Both the position numbers and the translations under genes were made by a program. A stretch of DNA of 43,073 nt from an uncultured Pseudomonadota bacterium. Its GTDB lineage: Bacteria > Pseudomonadota > Gammaproteobacteria > Enterobacterales > Succinivibrionaceae. This document shows positions 34,377 through 43,073 of the stretch, piece by piece. Positions within the stretch are counted from its first letter, which is position 1. The number at the start of each line of letters is the position of its first letter. The notes beneath the pieces were generated by a model, which was not told the origin of the DNA, did no database searches, and worked only from the letters and a program-made list of their open reading frames with translations. The stretch spans positions 1 through 43,073 of the forward strand of contig OMYE01000010.1 of assembly GCA_900315145.1 (NCBI GenBank), written 5' to 3'.

Positions 34377-34466
34377 AAAAAAAACGGTCATCATAATATG
34401 GAATGATGACCGAAAACACGGAATGAAAAACAAAGATTAGTAAACATTACATCTTCGTTTCGCAGG
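34377..34466 (-). ncRNA. Candidate small RNA, copy A
   Basis: Minus-strand unit with no convincing ORF. A promoter-like pair lies at 34473-34501. The predicted start is near 34466. The 3' end is a perfect ten-pair hairpin (34385-34394 with 34403-34412, eight-base loop) followed on the minus strand by eight T (34384-34377). The same architecture recurs in copies B and C; similarity outside the promoter is low. A 19-codon frame overlapping the terminator (starting ATGTTTACT) lacks a good ribosome-binding site. I do not recognise an RNA family. Confidence 0.55.
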
Positions 34467-34472
34467 TATTAT

Positions 34473-34501
34473 ATTAGATACATGAATTTATAAAAAGTTC
34501 A
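34473..34501 (-). promoter_or_regulatory. Promoter of small RNA copy A
   Basis: On the minus strand: TGAACTTTT (34501-34493), 14 bases, then TCTAAT (34478-34473). Read as a sigma-70 promoter this is ATGAAC-18-TCTAAT with an AT-rich upstream stretch. The element and spacing are identical in three places in this region. Confidence 0.6.
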
Positions 34502-34850
34502 TTCAAATTCTAAAAAATTTTAATCAGTATAAACTAAAAGCAGTTATGTCATATATTAAATGTGAATAGTCTTTTATTTTTTTTGAGAAATATCGCATTT
34601 ATTCTTTGAAATATCCTCTTGTATGTAAATAAGATTGTGGGCAACCTGTTTTTAACCTATGAACTATATATGTAGAATAATGTCGTATTGTTCTGACAGG
34701 CAGCAATATAGCTAGTTTAAAGTATGGATATTTCTAAAAGGCATGAGTTATTAGAAACAGATGGATATTGCCGGAGTAATTAACATACTTATCTACATTG
34801 AATAGTTGTGAATATGTTGATATCTTTAATAAAAGATTTTTTCAAGGCAT
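34502..34850. other. AT-rich spacer between small RNA copies A and B
   Basis: About 350 bases without recognisable genes, repeats or hairpins of note. An isolated ATTAGA near 34750 lacks the partner element found in the three promoter copies. Confidence 0.5.
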
Positions 34851-34933
34851 AAAAAAAGCCACGGTTCCTGTTATAACCGTGGCCTGTGTAAAGCACTTAT
34901 ATGAAGGAGAAAAACAAGTTTAATTAGCTTAAC
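34851..34933 (-). ncRNA. Candidate small RNA, copy B
   Basis: Minus-strand unit of roughly 83 nt without an ATG-initiated frame. The promoter-like pair is at 34940-34968. The 3' end is a perfect nine-pair hairpin (34858-34866 with 34875-34883, eight-base loop) followed on the minus strand by seven T (34857-34851). Its body shares CTAATTAAAC and a CTTCAT-containing pyrimidine tract with copy C. It lies between copy A and the recombinase gene. Confidence 0.55.
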
Positions 34934-34939
34934 TTCTTT

Positions 34940-34968
34940 ATTAGATAGAAGATGATTAGAAAAGTTCA
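34940..34968 (-). promoter_or_regulatory. Promoter of small RNA copy B
   Basis: On the minus strand: TGAACTTTT (34968-34960), 14 bases, TCTAAT (34945-34940); the -35 reads TTGAAC, the best of the three copies. Confidence 0.6.
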
Positions 34969-35082
34969 AACTTATTTTTGATTATCTGAAAATTTTTACA
35001 AAAGGTAAAAAACTGCTGTTCACAATATCTGACTATGAGTCTATTAGGATAATTTCCTGTTTTAATTAATATTGAGGATTCA

Positions 35083-36225
35083 ATGAAAATGGTTGACGAT
35101 AAGAAGAGAATTTTAATAAGCGGAACCTTCAGTATTGAATTGACAAAGGATGAACTGGTTGAATTCTTGGAATTTCTAAATAAACGTAAAATTCATGTTG
35201 TGCTTAATAACCGGAACATTATGCAGGTTGATGATAAATATGATGATCTGACATTAAAAGACGCTATAAATATGTATTTTAAAGAAAAGAATCTGAAAAA
35301 ATGGACCATCAGAAACTATATCAGTTCATTCCGGGCGGTGTTTTCTAAATTGTGTGAAAACGGGATGGATAACTGGAGGAGTCTGAAGGTAAAAAGCATT
35401 GATTATGAATTCATCAGCAGATTCAGGATTCAGAGCTCAACTGATTATCAGTACTGCTATTCAGTTAATATTGTGTTCTCCTGGATGGAGAGGATGGAAA
35501 TAATCAGCAACAATCCTTTTTCGAAATATCTTTCGCAGATAACTAGATTTAAACATACTGTAAGACCGGCTCTTAACTGTGATGAGTGGATAGACAGGCA
35601 TCAGGCAAAAGAAGAAATTTCTTATTTTTTCAGCAGAATAAGGGGGATGATTAAGCCGGAACTGTACTATTTTTTAGTTCTGCATTTTATTCTGGCAACA
35701 AGGATAACTGAAACATTGAATTATATAGATGCTGTGAAGACTCAGTATAGGAAAAAACCGGAGATTACTGACGGCGTATATATTAAAACAAAATGTACCA
35801 GACAGGGAGATGCTGCTGATTTCAGAATACCTGTACCGTCATTTATTTACGAAATGGTGTTGAACTGCAGTGTTCTTTTTATGAGGTATAGACCGGGAAC
35901 TGTACTGGCTCTGTTCAGAAAAACCCTTGTGAAAAATTTTAAGAATGAATTCTGTCTGCATGGTACTAGAGCGATTTTCAGGACAACTATAGATTTTTTA
36001 ACAGAAGGGGAAAATTTTACGGATGATGCTAAGGAATGCTATATAAATCATAAAGTGGATTCATATGTGAAGAGTAGATATCATCGTAATGATTATTTTA
36101 TGGAGCGCATCAGAATGATGTGTATTTATGCCGGCTTTATTTATGAGTGTGCAGGATTTACTAAAGAAATCAAAAAACTGAGGTCATTCGAATCAGATTT
36201 CTTTAAAAGAGAGAATAAGGTGTGA
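35083..36225 (+). CDS. Tyrosine recombinase / integrase, P4-like catalytic domain
   Basis: Predicted DNA strand-exchange enzyme of 380 aa. The N-terminal ~55 residues are hydrophilic and unrecognised; about 57-155 resembles a SAM-like core-binding domain (LTLKDAINMYFKEKN, WTIRNYISSFRAVFSKL). The catalytic domain (about 165-345) shows Arg207 (FILATRITETLNY), a candidate Lys at 235 or 237, His293-x-x-Arg296 (LHGTRAIFR), His323 (YINHK) and nucleophile Tyr333 (KSRYHRNDYFMERIRMM). The last motif is like that of P4-type integrases, but the usual P4 N-terminal domain is absent. The ATG follows GAGG at seven bases. No tRNA target, att repeats or phage genes are adjacent. It is flanked by three small-RNA-like units on the opposite strand. 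Target and role are unknown. Confidence 0.85.
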   Translation: MKMVDDKKRILISGTFSIELTKDELVEFLEFLNKRKIHVVLNNRNIMQVDDKYDDLTLKDAINMYFKEKNLKKWTIRNYISSFRAVFSKLCENGMDNWRSLKVKSIDYEFISRFRIQSSTDYQYCYSVNIVFSWMERMEIISNNPFSKYLSQITRFKHTVRPALNCDEWIDRHQAKEEISYFFSRIRGMIKPELYYFLVLHFILATRITETLNYIDAVKTQYRKKPEITDGVYIKTKCTRQGDAADFRIPVPSFIYEMVLNCSVLFMRYRPGTVLALFRKTLVKNFKNEFCLHGTRAIFRTTIDFLTEGENFTDDAKECYINHKVDSYVKSRYHRNDYFMERIRMMCIYAGFIYECAGFTKEIKKLRSFESDFFKRENKV

Positions 36226-36385
36226 TTGGAATTGTATATGGTTAGTTTGACTTATAGGTGTATTTATATGGTCGGACAGGGAAGTCTAAAATTATAAATT
36301 ATTTGTCTGAGGCAGATTAATTCTTCTGAGTAGCATCATTCATGTTCGCAGAGAGTGTAGTTATGTCCATTATACTGCAGTAAAA

Positions 36386-36458
36386 ATAAAAAACTCGCCT
36401 TATAAAGTGCTAAAGCGAGTTAAGAAAGATATTATTATGAAGAAGAGCTTGCGTGCTC
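36386..36458 (-). ncRNA. Candidate small RNA, copy C
   Basis: Minus-strand unit of about 73 nt on the far side of the recombinase gene. The promoter-like pair is at 36465-36493. The 3' end is an 11-pair hairpin (36388-36402 region with 36411-36421; AACTCGCTTTA / TAAGGCGAGTT on the minus strand, one wobble, eight-base loop) followed by TTTT-rich sequence. There is no coding frame on this strand. Confidence 0.55.
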
Positions 36459-36464
36459 TGTTTA

Positions 36465-36493
36465 ATTAGAATGCCTTTTTTGTAAAAAGTTCA
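36465..36493 (-). promoter_or_regulatory. Promoter of small RNA copy C
   Basis: On the minus strand: TGAACTTTT (36493-36485), 14 bases, TCTAAT (36470-36465), preceded by a strongly AT-rich stretch. Confidence 0.6.
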
Positions 36494-37550: not shown

Positions 37551-40500
37551 TTAGTAAAGTCTTAACCATGAAGCATTCTTTGATACTTTTGTCGGAGAGG
37601 TCTCACTGGTGTTGCCTGTTGGACCATTTTCATTTGCCTTTGACATCTGGGTATTATCAGTCAGTCTTCCTTCATCATCAAGCTCTAATGTAGTTTCATT
37701 ACTTAAGGAATTAATCTTAACTGTTGATTCATTCTTAATGTTGTAAGGATTAATTGCCCATTTACCTCTCATAATGTATGAGTGACCGCCTCCTTCGCAA
37801 CTGTCTCCTACATTAGGGACATTGACTGTTATGACCATTTCTTCAGTACTCTTTATTATAGGATCAGTATATATACGGGCCAGCCCCTGGTCGTTTTCAC
37901 TGAATCCATTAAGATCGAAATACCAGCCATAAACACGTTTAGGAACAGATTTAATGGAAGGACTTCTGGAGAGTTTGATTTTTTGATTGCCGTTTTTATC
38001 CGTGAGGACACTTTCCTGCAGAGGGAAAAGACATCTTGGAGAAATGGCATCACTGTAGTTATCACAACGTCTTACCATATTGTCACTGCTACTAATATTA
38101 GAAGCGTTAACTTCCGGTTGATTACCGTTCAGGTCTCTAATCATATAGACTGACTGAGTGTCATTATAATACTTGGAAGGGAGTCCCTGATCCGCTTCAG
38201 ACCATAATGCACCGGTACCGAATAATAAGCCAATACCGCCTGACTTATGGTAGGATGTAGCTATCTGAGTGGTGATTGGCTGAGCCTTGTGGCTTGCATC
38301 CATAGCTTTGAAGATTACTTTAGGCTTAGAACCATCAGTTGTACCCCAAAGTTTTGCTTCAGTGGCATCTTCCCCGAGCGAATTCATATCCATTTTCCAA
38401 ACATTACCATACAGGTCACCGAAGTACATAGCCTCATAGTATAATGCCTGAGTTGCTTTTGCATACTCGTCCAGTAAAGTAGAGGTGTAGTCCGAAATTG
38501 GAGATAAGACATTCTTTCTGCTGGTAGAACCCTCACCATACAGATCTTTCCATGGGTCTTCAGCAGGTATATCAATTTCATTGACAATACATGGTCTGTA
38601 CTTTGCAGTAGAACCACACTCAGAATATCTCTTTCCGAGCATATCTACTATTACTAAGCCTGCATTGTCTGATGTGTGATTATAACCACTGCCGAATACA
38701 AGGAACGGGAAGGAAGGATACAGATCTGAGTTCTTATTGGCTAGAGACAGTAATGCCGGAGCTTTTCGCTGTTTACCAATATAGTCTGAATCATGATCTG
38801 AAATTTCCCATAAGAGGAAATCATCGCTAAGAGCCGCCATTCTCGCTTTTGGATCTTGGATACTGGCTAAATTAGCAACACTGGAAACGTTAAGCACGTA
38901 CCCGCCCTTGAAACCAAGACCGTATGTACCGTAGAGATAGGTATTTGTAATCTGGCTTTCAGTTTCGGTTGCTGATGCCTTTATAAATATCTTGTCATAG
39001 TACACTTTAGGCGTGCTGTCTACGAAAGGAATGTGGGCCTTTGTCTGATAGGTTTCGCGTACAAGTTCCATAAGACTTGGTAACATCACTGTTGGTACAT
39101 ATGAAATTATAGGTTTACCATTGAGATCATCAAGGATGTGCAGCATTCCGTCATTTGCTCCGACAGCGATGAACTGTTTGCAGCTTTCCCTATTTGTGTC
39201 AGGGTTCAGCTTGCAGTCCAATTTGAATGCGGTAGCGTCAGAATTAATAATATCACCGAGAACGAAATGCTTATTATTTCTTTCACGTGGTCTTAAAGGA
39301 GTTTCATTTAAGAACGCAAAGTCAATCTTTTGATTTGCTGTATCATTAATTCCTTCATACTTGTCATCACCGGCTAACCAGCGTACAAGCTTATCCACAA
39401 ATACCTGATAATCACTACTTGCATCGATTGCCTCATCGGATATGTTTTCATTGATGAGTTTTCTGAATACGTTATAGCCTGCATTGGCTAACAGACCTTT
39501 TCCAGAGGCTGCTGTTTTATAGTTATTAGAACTGTCTCTCTCGTATGGAATTTCTTCAGCGTAAAGTCGTACCAGCTTTGGAGTATCAGCATCCATGTCA
39601 GCTGTTACGATAAGACGCTCCTCAGGGCTGAGTTTAGCAAACTGATCAGCAGCGTTCCAACCTACACCATCTATGATTTCAAACTGGTAGTTTTGGTCGA
39701 AGGTTGTTTTTCTTAATGAACCATACCAGGTTCCGGCGTCGTACATCGTGCTGTATACGTATTTACTGTTCGGATCATTCTTAGTATCACTGTTTTCCGG
39801 AGTTTTAGCTATTATAAAACTAGAACCTGAAGAAAGAGATTCCTCCATCTTGCTGAGCATTTCCGCAATGCCGTCACGAAGCTTGAGTGGATTTGTTACT
39901 AAATAATAGTTATCCGGCTCAATATTCGGATTTGAGCGAGTTGGTTTTTGGGATGCATTGATACCATATTTGGCAGCATACCAGAGAGGGGATTTTAACC
40001 ATCCTGACTCAGTATTGTTTTCATCAACTCTGAATACACGGCTGGAGGTAACTGTTGTCCCATTAGTTTTAGCAACCTTTCCCATTGAGGAATCCTGATC
40101 ACCGTGAAGACGATAACTGTTTGCTCCGCCGTTAAAGTCTCCGAATTTTGCGTACTGCGTGTATCCTAAATTATATAAAGTCCTTCTGTTTCCGTAATAA
40201 ATCTGGGCATGAGGTTTAATAAAGGTATTATAATAATTCGCTATATTTGAAGAAGTCCAGAATCCCTGATAATTTGGTTCCTGATAATCCCATGAAGGAA
40301 ATAAGCACGCATCACCACCTTTACCGTCTTTACCGGAATTAGCTACCTGAGTAAGACCTGAACTGCCGTCATCTGTGATTTTTCCCCAATGATCTTTATT
40401 CTTGCATGAATCAATGGAGGCATCATTTATAATGGTATCAAGTTCGTACAGGAGTGATTTACATGCTTTATCGTTACCTGCAGACAGTTTTCCTAAATCA

Positions 40501-43073
40501 ACATATACCCCTTCATTTTCTACACCTGTTATTACGTAACCCGCATGCTGAGGTGCATAAGGGTCACCATCCTCATGGGTTAACATGATATGCACGTAGG
40601 TATTTCCATCACTACCCTGAAGAACCTGATATTTATAACCGACAACCCAGTCCATATCATAATCTGAACCATATTCAAAGTCTTCATAGCTGATACGGAA
40701 TACACCTTCGTTGTCGCCTAAACTTTCAACATAGAAATCAGCAACCTGATTGGTTGACTGAACGATTCTGTCTAATCTGTTAATAGGATCATCTTTGTAA
40801 TCAATACCTTTTTTACATGTTGAACTATCACCACTTACGCTCTTGGCAAATGGCAGTATTTCTACGGTTTTTGTGTACTGTTTACCTGAGCTATCGGATA
40901 ATGTAATAGGGATATTGATTTGTGGAAGATTAGGCTTCATGGCTACAACGAATGTTTGCAGATTTAATGCTTTCTCATTGTCATTAGGACCTTTGGTAAC
41001 ACGTAAAGTTTTTCTACTGTATAAAGATGCAACACCGGCAACGTTATAACTACCAAAGCTGAAGGCTACAGCCGGAGCCAGTCCCACGATCTGATTTAAA
41101 TTGGTTACATACTTTTTGGAAGGAATAAACTCATACATTGCAAGAGGATCATTTTTCTTAAATCCTCCTTTCATGCCCCCCATGAAGTAATATCCTGATT
41201 TAAAACCGGATTCATTAGATACAGCACCGGTTTCGTTTTCCACCGCTGTAGTATCCCCTCCGTATGCATTTTTATCTTTTTCGGTGCTATCAAAACTGAT
41301 ATTTTCGTCTGCAATAACGAGTGCATACGGTTTGGCACAGTATTCTGGACTTCCGTCAGGGTATGGATCAATCGCATCAACATGACCGATTTTTAATTCA
41401 GCTTCTTCATAGCCAGTATCTTGATTGGTAAGATCATTGTGTTTAAAATATCTAACCGTCTGATAAAGCATTTCACCGACAGGATTACCCCAGTCGTGAC
41501 ATAATCCTCCCTTCTCATCAGCCATATTCTTTAGATTGTTGTATGATCTAGAGCAGCTGTTGTACACACCGCCTCCATTAGGGTCGCCGTTCCAACCACC
41601 TTCTTTTGCTGCAATGTTAAAACGATCCAGAGAGGCTACAATACCGCAGATTGTGTCACTTCCGGAACAGTTACTTTCTGACAGGGTTTTAAAGTTAAAG
41701 TCTCCGGCAAAATGATCATTATTACTTTCTGTGAATATTTCTTTGCTAAAGTCTCCAATATTGGCGCGTAAAGTTCCCCCTTTGATATTATTCTGCCAGC
41801 TGCCGGATAATAAGCCGAATTTCATTCTAGGAGAGTCGCCCTGACCATACTGCTGCAGAAGACCTGATGGCTGCCAGATAGGATTGGCTTCAGTACCGTA
41901 ATTGTAGCAGCTGTCCAGATCATGGAATTCATCAGTACAGGCAACTACAGCGATACCTTTAGTCTGAACTTCACCGGTGAATAGATTAACATTTGTAGTC
42001 TTACTGCCTTCGGCTTTCTTACTTCTGTCTATACGCTTTTGCTGGGTTGAACCAATAGCATCGTTATTATTACTATTTGTCTGACGGCTTGCCCAGTCCC
42101 AGATATATGCCGGGTTGTCAACAGTTGGAGCTCTTCCTGGCATACCGCTGTTTTTTACCAGACCGTAACGCAGATATGACGGAGACCAGCGCATGGTATT
42201 AGTGAAGGTGTCATTGTCTGTTTTATCGTTGTGTTTTGTATTGCCACTGTCCGGTGATGCAACTAAAAAATACCAGGCATCTTCAGAACTGCCGGTATTT
42301 GATGATACGCCGGCAAAATCCCGAACAGTGAGCTTCTGTTCGTACATAAGATCGGAGAGAACTTTACCCCAGGCGTGGGAATCTCTGACTATACGGGAGT
42401 GGGTTAACAATGAATATTTGTTTTTGTATTTGGTGGTTTTGGCTTCTCCTGAACGTAAGTCAGCTCCTTTGGTGGAACTGTAAACACGTGCTCCGCCATA
42501 TAAAACTTTTCTTATTACGTCTATTCTGCTGGATGTGGCATAGCTTAAAAAGTTACCGCTCCATTCACCACTGGCCCCATCGCAGTATTTTACATCTCTT
42601 GTCGGTTTTGCGGTATCTGCCCACATTTTTAGTGACACATTTTCTTTTGTATCTGCTTCTCTTACTGGAATCCAGTATCCTGGGAATTTCTTGTAGGAAT
42701 TACCACCTTTATCCTGTACAATTCCCTGAGTCGGAGCATTTGTTAAATTTTCAAAACCATCAGAAGTATCAACGTACTTATAACAGTATTTATTATCAAA
42801 CAGCCCGTAATAATCAAATGAAGGATCGAACATAATTTCCAGTTTGCCGTCACCGTCGAGGTCAGTGTAATCTGAATATGCTTCGGTAAACAGATTGTGT
42901 TCGCGTCCCATGGTAATCATAACCAAAGGAGGAACGTTTAAGCCGCCCACGCCAAACGGGATATTGGCTGGTTTGCCTCGCATGATCATAGTTTTATCGT
43001 CATCAGTCAAATTTTCACTGGAATCAGCGTAGACAATCCCGATTGAGGTAGCAATCCCCATGGAGCCTAGTAA
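37551..43073 (-). CDS. pilY1: PilY1-type type IV pilus tip adhesin, N-terminus outside the window
   Basis: Large secreted protein associated with type IV pili (adhesion, mechanosensing, pilus stability in other species). The frame runs off the window at 43073; the first ATG inside (43061) lies within what looks like a signal peptide h-region (LLGSMGIATSIGIVYA, cleavage before DSS), so the true start is further out. More than 1,836 residues are visible. An N-terminal DLDGDGKLE (about residues 67-75) looks like a calcium-binding loop. The C-terminal PilC/PilY1 beta-propeller includes FVLGDIINSDATAF, VGANDGMLHIL, VDSTPKVYYD, YGTYGLGFKGGYVLNV and GDLYGNVWKMDMNS. The chain ends NASWLRLY. No metal-ion-dependent adhesion motif (DxSxS) is evident. 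It is probably the last gene of a minor-pilin operon lying beyond the window. Confidence 0.85.
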   Translation of the reverse strand, partial: LLGSMGIATSIGIVYADSSENLTDDDKTMIMRGKPANIPFGVGGLNVPPLVMITMGREHNLFTEAYSDYTDLDGDGKLEIMFDPSFDYYGLFDNKYCYKYVDTSDGFENLTNAPTQGIVQDKGGNSYKKFPGYWIPVREADTKENVSLKMWADTAKPTRDVKYCDGASGEWSGNFLSYATSSRIDVIRKVLYGGARVYSSTKGADLRSGEAKTTKYKNKYSLLTHSRIVRDSHAWGKVLSDLMYEQKLTVRDFAGVSSNTGSSEDAWYFLVASPDSGNTKHNDKTDNDTFTNTMRWSPSYLRYGLVKNSGMPGRAPTVDNPAYIWDWASRQTNSNNNDAIGSTQQKRIDRSKKAEGSKTTNVNLFTGEVQTKGIAVVACTDEFHDLDSCYNYGTEANPIWQPSGLLQQYGQGDSPRMKFGLLSGSWQNNIKGGTLRANIGDFSKEIFTESNNDHFAGDFNFKTLSESNCSGSDTICGIVASLDRFNIAAKEGGWNGDPNGGGVYNSCSRSYNNLKNMADEKGGLCHDWGNPVGEMLYQTVRYFKHNDLTNQDTGYEEAELKIGHVDAIDPYPDGSPEYCAKPYALVIADENISFDSTEKDKNAYGGDTTAVENETGAVSNESGFKSGYYFMGGMKGGFKKNDPLAMYEFIPSKKYVTNLNQIVGLAPAVAFSFGSYNVAGVASLYSRKTLRVTKGPNDNEKALNLQTFVVAMKPNLPQINIPITLSDSSGKQYTKTVEILPFAKSVSGDSSTCKKGIDYKDDPINRLDRIVQSTNQVADFYVESLGDNEGVFRISYEDFEYGSDYDMDWVVGYKYQVLQGSDGNTYVHIMLTHEDGDPYAPQHAGYVITGVENEGVYVDLGKLSAGNDKACKSLLYELDTIINDASIDSCKNKDHWGKITDDGSSGLTQVANSGKDGKGGDACLFPSWDYQEPNYQGFWTSSNIANYYNTFIKPHAQIYYGNRRTLYNLGYTQYAKFGDFNGGANSYRLHGDQDSSMGKVAKTNGTTVTSSRVFRVDENNTESGWLKSPLWYAAKYGINASQKPTRSNPNIEPDNYYLVTNPLKLRDGIAEMLSKMEESLSSGSSFIIAKTPENSDTKNDPNSKYVYSTMYDAGTWYGSLRKTTFDQNYQFEIIDGVGWNAADQFAKLSPEERLIVTADMDADTPKLVRLYAEEIPYERDSSNNYKTAASGKGLLANAGYNVFRKLINENISDEAIDASSDYQVFVDKLVRWLAGDDKYEGINDTANQKIDFAFLNETPLRPRERNNKHFVLGDIINSDATAFKLDCKLNPDTNRESCKQFIAVGANDGMLHILDDLNGKPIISYVPTVMLPSLMELVRETYQTKAHIPFVDSTPKVYYDKIFIKASATETESQITNTYLYGTYGLGFKGGYVLNVSSVANLASIQDPKARMAALSDDFLLWEISDHDSDYIGKQRKAPALLSLANKNSDLYPSFPFLVFGSGYNHTSDNAGLVIVDMLGKRYSECGSTAKYRPCIVNEIDIPAEDPWKDLYGEGSTSRKNVLSPISDYTSTLLDEYAKATQALYYEAMYFGDLYGNVWKMDMNSLGEDATEAKLWGTTDGSKPKVIFKAMDASHKAQPITTQIATSYHKSGGIGLLFGTGALWSEADQGLPSKYYNDTQSVYMIRDLNGNQPEVNASNISSSDNMVRRCDNYSDAISPRCLFPLQESVLTDKNGNQKIKLSRSPSIKSVPKRVYGWYFDLNGFSENDQGLARIYTDPIIKSTEEMVITVNVPNVGDSCEGGGHSYIMRGKWAINPYNIKNESTVKINSLSNETTLELDDEGRLTDNTQMSKANENGPTGNTSETSPTKVSKNASWLRLY

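Follow-up and report, generated by a model that had tools for sequence, protein, structure and literature searches.

MicA of Escherichia coli and Salmonella is described as a short RNA dependent on the sigma factor sigmaE (RpoE) that represses the synthesis of OmpA (PMC1804206), acting by base pairing (PMC2628432), and RybB of the same bacteria as a sigmaE-dependent RNA that hastens the decay of several omp messenger RNAs (mRNAs) (PMC1804206). VrrA of Vibrio, which also depends on sigmaE and represses ompA, is stated to be no homologue of either (PMC2628432), and sigmaE-linked small RNAs (sRNAs) are reported from distant groups, namely FoxJ in Fusobacterium (PMC11005410) and a MicA homologue in Bordetella (PMC12235514). 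Here we describe a stretch of 43,073 nucleotides (nt) from an uncultured gammaproteobacterium of the family Succinivibrionaceae (the window; contig OMYE01000010.1 of assembly GCA_900315145.1), in which three modules on the minus strand, called A, B, and C, lie between tilS and rpsT. We consider it very likely that they are genes for sigmaE-dependent, probably Hfq-binding sRNAs that lower outer-membrane protein synthesis in envelope stress.

How do these modules compare with the described RNAs? By analogy, a mode of action like that of MicA, RybB, and VrrA would be the natural reading. MicA pairs through its 5' end, whereas the stretch of C predicted to pair lies internally, in the linker that follows a 5' hairpin. 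Sibling sRNAs, that is, several similar RNAs under one regulator, are familiar from Qrr and OmrA/OmrB, whose regulators are other than sigmaE; a narrow literature search turned up no multi-copy siblings under sigmaE control. As a sigmaE-dependent short RNA directed against OmpA, MicA resembles what is proposed for C, but its locus is described as luxS-gshA (PMC1804206) and not tilS-rpsT. RybB is placed between ybjK and its neighbour (PMC1804206), whereas one to five siblings stand together here. VrrA offers a precedent for an independent family of sigmaE sRNAs (PMC2628432), while differing in its locus and, at 140 nt, in its length (73-92 nt estimated here), and there is no Rfam match here. 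At gathering score, A, B, and C gave no match to MicA, RybB, or VrrA in a copy of Rfam whose holding of each of these families is unlisted, and the curated models as a whole gave none in the window or in the loci of 13 relatives; a lax search returned Spot 42 (E 3.4) and a fungal small nucleolar RNA (E 3.2), which we took as chance. Judged by titles and the beginnings of abstracts, narrow and wording-dependent searches of the literature yielded no paper on this sRNA locus.

Each module begins with TGAACTTTT-N14-TCTAAT on the minus strand, an exact match at 34473..34501 in A, 34940..34968 in B, and 36465..36493 in C, as noted in a first-pass annotation made from the sequence alone. That annotation also placed a hairpin with an eight-nucleotide loop and a T run behind every promoter, and a terminator scan agrees, finding 10 pairs followed by T8 in A (34385..34412), 11 pairs in B (34856..34885), and 11 in C (36392..36421), all on the minus strand; the stems start 61, 55, and 44 nt past TCTAAT by their coordinates, and not at the 52-95 first given. 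The T run follows on the minus strand only, in keeping with the earlier view that these hairpins end minus-strand transcripts. With 5' ends estimated at 5-7 nt past the -10 box, the predicted RNAs would occupy 34377..34468 (A, about 90 nt), 34849..34935 (B, about 85 nt), and 36388..36460 (C, about 73 nt) of that strand, which has no open reading frame (ORF) of at least 60 codons across the modules. All three modules thus have the traits of sRNA genes: their own promoter, a rho-independent terminator with a U run, and no ORF. The spacing had been called hard to get by chance, and within the window the exact pattern occurs only in A, B, and C (five matches at up to three mismatches against 3.4 expected in shuffles), while in the whole 2.98-Mb genome the three are the only sites at up to one mismatch (two for the reversed control pattern). 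Between 34250 and 36700 the terminator scan found four terminator-like sites against 0.8 expected in shuffles, three of them being the hairpins of A, B, and C. The predicted folds, with the estimated ends, beat all 200 dinucleotide shuffles in each case (z -6.2, -3.3, and -5.1 for A, B, and C); a U-rich linker precedes the terminator hairpin in all three, and a short 5' hairpin precedes the linker in A and C. In these folds C keeps its linker free of pairs, A pairs part of its linker with its own 5' end, and the linker of B is weakly paired.

Which sigma factor would read these promoters? The published sigmaE boxes are GGAACTTTT at -35 and GTCAAA at -10 (PMC1804206); the -35 box of the modules agrees with that motif at eight of its nine positions and is followed, in three of three, by a 14-nt spacer and a -10 box of TCTAA. 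The genome has its own rpoE, scoring above the TIGR02939 cut-off and followed by rseA and rseB in an rpoE-rseA-rseB cluster, and a box with one mismatch, GAACTTTT-N14-TCTTA, stands 44 bp ahead of the rpoE start. Among 56 genomes of the same family, the strict pattern GAACTTTT-N14-TCTAA occurs at 111 sites, against 43 for the reversed pattern, with at least one site in 50 of the genomes. Such strict boxes stand ahead of rpoE in five family genomes, ahead of lpxC in three (L180 by family search, L249 and L267 by a similar N-terminus only), ahead of lptD in two (L176 confirmed, L178 by equal length and a near-identical start), and 197 nt upstream of rpoH in one relative; genes for an FKBP-type isomerase and an M23 peptidase have them too. 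From the sigmaE-like box together with the boxes ahead of rpoE, lpxC, lptD, and rpoH, we infer that the three modules most likely encode sRNAs under sigmaE control. The first-pass annotation had missed both this fit of the promoter to sigmaE and the fit of the linkers to the start regions of outer-membrane proteins described below. An improbable alternative, the best surviving of those we weighed, is that another sigma factor, for example a different extracytoplasmic function (ECF) factor, drives the modules, with roles beyond the control of outer-membrane proteins. The departure of TCTAA from the published GTCAAA speaks for it, as does the failure to find a target for A or B; it is countered by the one-mismatch box at the genome's own rpoE and the strict boxes at these four genes in relatives, by the way C and its siblings in g11, another genus of the family, fit ompA and porin-like starts, and by a sigma-70 scan giving 11 sites against 12.9 in shuffles, none of them in register with any of the three starts (on the minus strand the closest one ends at 34981, some 46 nt short of where B is estimated to begin).

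The linker of C (36422..36443, minus strand) contains CTTCATAATAATATCTTTCTT, which is identical in this genome and in three congeners (G023, G024, and G025). Its complement, at up to three mismatches, has only one other place in the genome besides C, and this is the start of a 345-residue protein carrying the OmpA membrane and OmpA C-terminal domains. The linker is antisense to this ompA from the Shine-Dalgarno sequence through codon 3, with 21 contiguous pairs and a predicted energy of -26.7 kcal/mol. Among 351 gene starts, sampled from 20 stretches together with the window, L173, and the deliberately added ompA stretch L284, this pairing ranked first, with the next at -17.4, a mean of -8.2, and a standard deviation (SD) of 2.9; none of 5000 shuffles of the linker scored as low. 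In G023 a 17-nt match at the ompA start is the same, and the predicted pairing is kept at -26.1 kcal/mol. Pairing of C with the translation start of the ompA mRNA is therefore strongly predicted. Might the match be instead a by-product of decayed or miniature genes on the plus strand, inverted 5' ends of outer-membrane protein genes? The complement of C does read AAGAAAGATATTATT-ATG, and continues as MKKSLRAL where ompA has MKKSLVAL. We regard this reading as very unlikely, for the frame is shifted in G024 (by eye), the T run follows the hairpins on the minus strand only, and complementarity beyond the linker is ordinary, with 12 of 150 (G000) and 22 of 150 (G023) shuffled 5' arms of C scoring as low. 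That C arose from an inverted duplication of ompA is likewise unsupported, the complementarity outside the linker not being significant.

The siblings in g11 present a similar picture. Several of their linkers read GAUGACUUUUUCAUAAUAUAUUUCC or similar, and the complement of this type of linker, at up to two mismatches, falls at 30 places in eight genomes, against four for the reversed control. Seven of these are the sRNA loci themselves, and 18 of the other 23 were translated. Eight of the 18 are porin-like starts (MKKSLLALAV...) and one is an OmpA-like barrel; the remaining nine comprise two HU-like and two MetQ-like proteins, two copies of a 148-residue membrane protein, one 193-residue protein, and two non-genes (by eye). 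The label porin-like goes by appearance, since the sole such protein scanned, L244, had no Pfam match. When 195 gene starts of g11 were ranked, genes for porin-like and OmpA-like proteins took all ten top places with the linker of G029 and G030 (one sequence), nine with that of G044, eight with G034, and six with G042. Between or beside the sRNA copies of g11 we also noted genes for secreted-looking proteins of 338-360 residues (L190, L194, L195, and L189) that resemble one another by eye.

Under the sigmaE reading, misfolded outer-membrane proteins would lead to the freeing of RpoE from RseA, and polymerase with RpoE would transcribe the three modules from their TGAACTTTT-N14-TCTAAT promoters, each RNA stopping at its own terminator. 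By pairing, the linker of C would cover the Shine-Dalgarno sequence and the first three codons of the ompA mRNA, blocking ribosome binding and speeding decay, and the siblings in g11 may act likewise on porin mRNAs. The genome has its own hfq (TIGR02383, 101.6 bits against a cut-off of 61.7), and the U-rich tracts of A, B, and C would be compatible with Hfq binding. A second Hfq-like stretch of the same genome (L286, C140:17830-18006) scores 58.3 bits, just under the same cut-off.

The arrangement of promoter, spacing, and hairpin recurs beside the same genes across the family, a conservation in related genomes on which the first-pass annotation had staked its reading. All 111 strict sites were classified, and a fixed synteny rule asked that within 2.5 kb a site have either tilS or accA downstream on the other strand or rpsT upstream on its own strand; 44 conform in the same orientation, in 29 of the 56 genomes and 10 of the 14 genera. 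The number of sRNA copies per locus ranges from one to five, G044 having five if two TCAAA sites are counted. A terminator was found after 57 of the 111 sites, against 47 of 504 random positions, by a detector that overlooks some visible terminators (e.g., L181); stretches upstream of strict sites, where tandem neighbours can lie, held one in 23 of 111 cases, and the opposite strand of the 57 terminator-bearing sites in only 6. It is thus most implausible that the modules are chance boxes in AT-rich intergenic DNA beside ordinary gene terminators, because, AT-rich as the region is and common as looser versions of the pattern are, three exact sites fall within about 2 kb with none elsewhere in the genome at up to one mismatch, the arrangement returns beside the same genes in 10 genera, and the RNA bodies of A and C are conserved. 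Among named bacteria, tilS or accA was present in the fetched flanks of none of 80 rpsT loci (the best 80 of 567 by tblastn, some shortened by contig ends), and these contain four loose sigmaE-like sites, 2-10 kb away from rpsT; the idea of an sRNA gene at rpsT in those bacteria was dropped. As a separate observation, L179 of G011 has three strict sites in about 0.6 kb (876-1505), two of the three RNA bodies being alike and all three terminators nearly identical (GACCAAGTTA...TAACTTGGTC or TGACTTGGTC); this looks like a recent tandem amplification.

Orthologues of sRNA A are found in six relatives (G023, G024, G025, G021, G027, and G028), and the seven loci, from genera g1, g7, and g10, can be aligned through both promoter and RNA. 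Invariant or nearly so are the -35 and -10 boxes, the 5' arms AACGAAGAU/AUCUUUGUU, the linker UUUUUCAUUCCGUGUUUUC, and the terminator stem, while the 14-nt promoter spacer, the terminator loop, and the 5' hairpin loop (at least 10 nt shorter in three loci) vary. In the window the invariant linker, UUUUUCAUUCCGUGUUUUCG, lies at 34411..34430 on the minus strand and is presumably a pairing or Hfq region. C has orthologues in the three congeners, whereas B has no counterpart in the same gap of these genomes. A covariance-model search, which the first-pass annotation had suggested with all three copies, was made with A; it recovered the seven A loci at 122-144 bits, other sites in the 40 searched sources reaching at most 33 bits, and did not join B and C to them: in the window these score only about 20 bits (E 0.3-0.4), and a common ancestral body for the three was discarded. 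The recurrence beside the same genes and the conserved boxes and body of A support the earlier reading of separate small RNAs with a promoter and a terminator apiece, whereas that of diverged copies of one body gives way to three different sequence types at one locus. Of the sequences thought common to B and C, the CTTCAT tract is indeed shared, in the linker, and CTAATTAAAC is no homologous segment, as it forms the -10 box and start region in C and lies inside the RNA in B.

The complement of the linker of A, CGAAAACACGGAATGAAAAA, recurs with one or two mismatches at an orthologous intergenic place in the three congeners, ahead of an NAD-synthase-like gene (by eye) and not at its start codon. 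Here a block, CCGAAAACACGGAATAAAAA (L307, L308, and L309, near 1480-1620), is invariant among the three while its flanks diverge; it is complementary to the linker of A, is followed by a long terminator-like hairpin, and gave nothing above chance in Rfam. It is possible that this block is an RNA sponge or partner of A, or alternatively a shared DNA element. In the window's own genome, words like CGGAAACACGGAAT(A/G)AA occur away from start codons (L312 and L310, each near 1501), one of them just ahead of the terminator behind a gene for a small secreted protein.

Several observations weigh against the sigmaE reading and its targets. A looser pattern, GAACTT-N16-TCTAA at up to one mismatch, has 54 sites in the genome against 128 for the reversed control, so that the loose form gives no signal alone and weight can be put only on strict boxes or on telling positions. 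Strict sites themselves are not uniformly placed: 62 of the 111 are neither at rpoE nor in line with the synteny rule, and some of these could have arisen by chance; 27 of the 62 lie within 1.7 kb of the end of a fetched stretch and are poorly judgeable; two sites of G019 lie about 2 kb from tilS on the tilS strand, and one of G041 has rpsT on the opposite strand. The ompA and g11 porin loci were found by patterns derived from the linkers, so their ranks are not independent; the ompA match, sought in G024 and G025, was not found there, and the other translated near matches (three orthologous in the congeners, two in the window's genome) open only 3-16 codons. Neither A nor B has a convincing mRNA target among the 351 sampled gene starts of the genome, where the best energies are -18.6 kcal/mol for A (mean -9.2, SD 2.5) and -26.8 for B (mean -12.6, SD 3.6), the latter with interrupted pairing, and whole-genome patterns revealed no clear target at a start codon. 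The porin family PF13609 has no match in this genome and one in each of the three congeners, and the predicted pairing of A, B, or C with these three porins was no better than -15.9 kcal/mol. Covariation in A amounts to one compensatory pair, with 221 of 500 shuffles as high; the stems hardly vary, which keeps the counts within the shuffle range, and we dropped covariation as support for A. Finally, the expression of all three modules is a prediction from sequence.

In evolutionary terms, these data invite a broader scheme, which we put forward tentatively and think may well not hold as a whole: The gap between tilS and rpsT could be a nursery of sigmaE sRNAs, a tandem array of one to five fast-evolving siblings under near-identical sigmaE promoters, each with an exchangeable antisense copy of the translation start of an outer-membrane protein, so that the stress response would be retargeted as the porin set changes. 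Type A may in this scheme have quit mRNA targets, pairing with intergenic RNA (the CCGAAAACACGGAATAAAAA block of the three congeners) as sponge or sponge partner. Outer-membrane-protein-silencing sRNAs of sigmaE are best known from enterobacteria and Vibrio, and another bacterial family here appears to have a set of its own, in one to five copies that often share a locus, with some targets legible from sequence. Hence, one can test how this half of the response to envelope stress has evolved repeatedly, and trace the gain, loss, and retargeting of siblings alongside the ompA and porin genes that each genome carries. The modules would also provide gene names and targets for stretches that annotation, we expect, would probably leave empty.

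As to the neighbourhood, the plus strand upstream of the cluster carries lpxB, rnhB, dnaE, accA, and tilS, followed by A and B on the minus strand; beyond these come a plus-strand ORF of 380 codons, then C and rpsT, both on the minus strand. No transfer RNA gene was found in the window. Downstream of rpsT, an ORF of 1836 codons (37551..43061, minus strand) matched nothing in NCBIfam or, at E up to 1, in Pfam. In the same gap of the three congeners only A and C were seen, with their promoters 363 bp (G023), 462 bp (G024), and 462 bp (G025) apart, against 1992 bp in the window; B and the 380-codon ORF therefore fill the roughly 1.5-1.6 kb missing from the congeners. This ORF (35083..36225, plus strand), between B and C, found no match in NCBIfam and PDB searches; its Pfam matches, to SAM-like domains of phage integrases, are weak (E 0.03, below cut-off), and by eye its C-terminus resembles that of a tyrosine recombinase. 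It is possibly a mobile insertion into the sRNA cluster.

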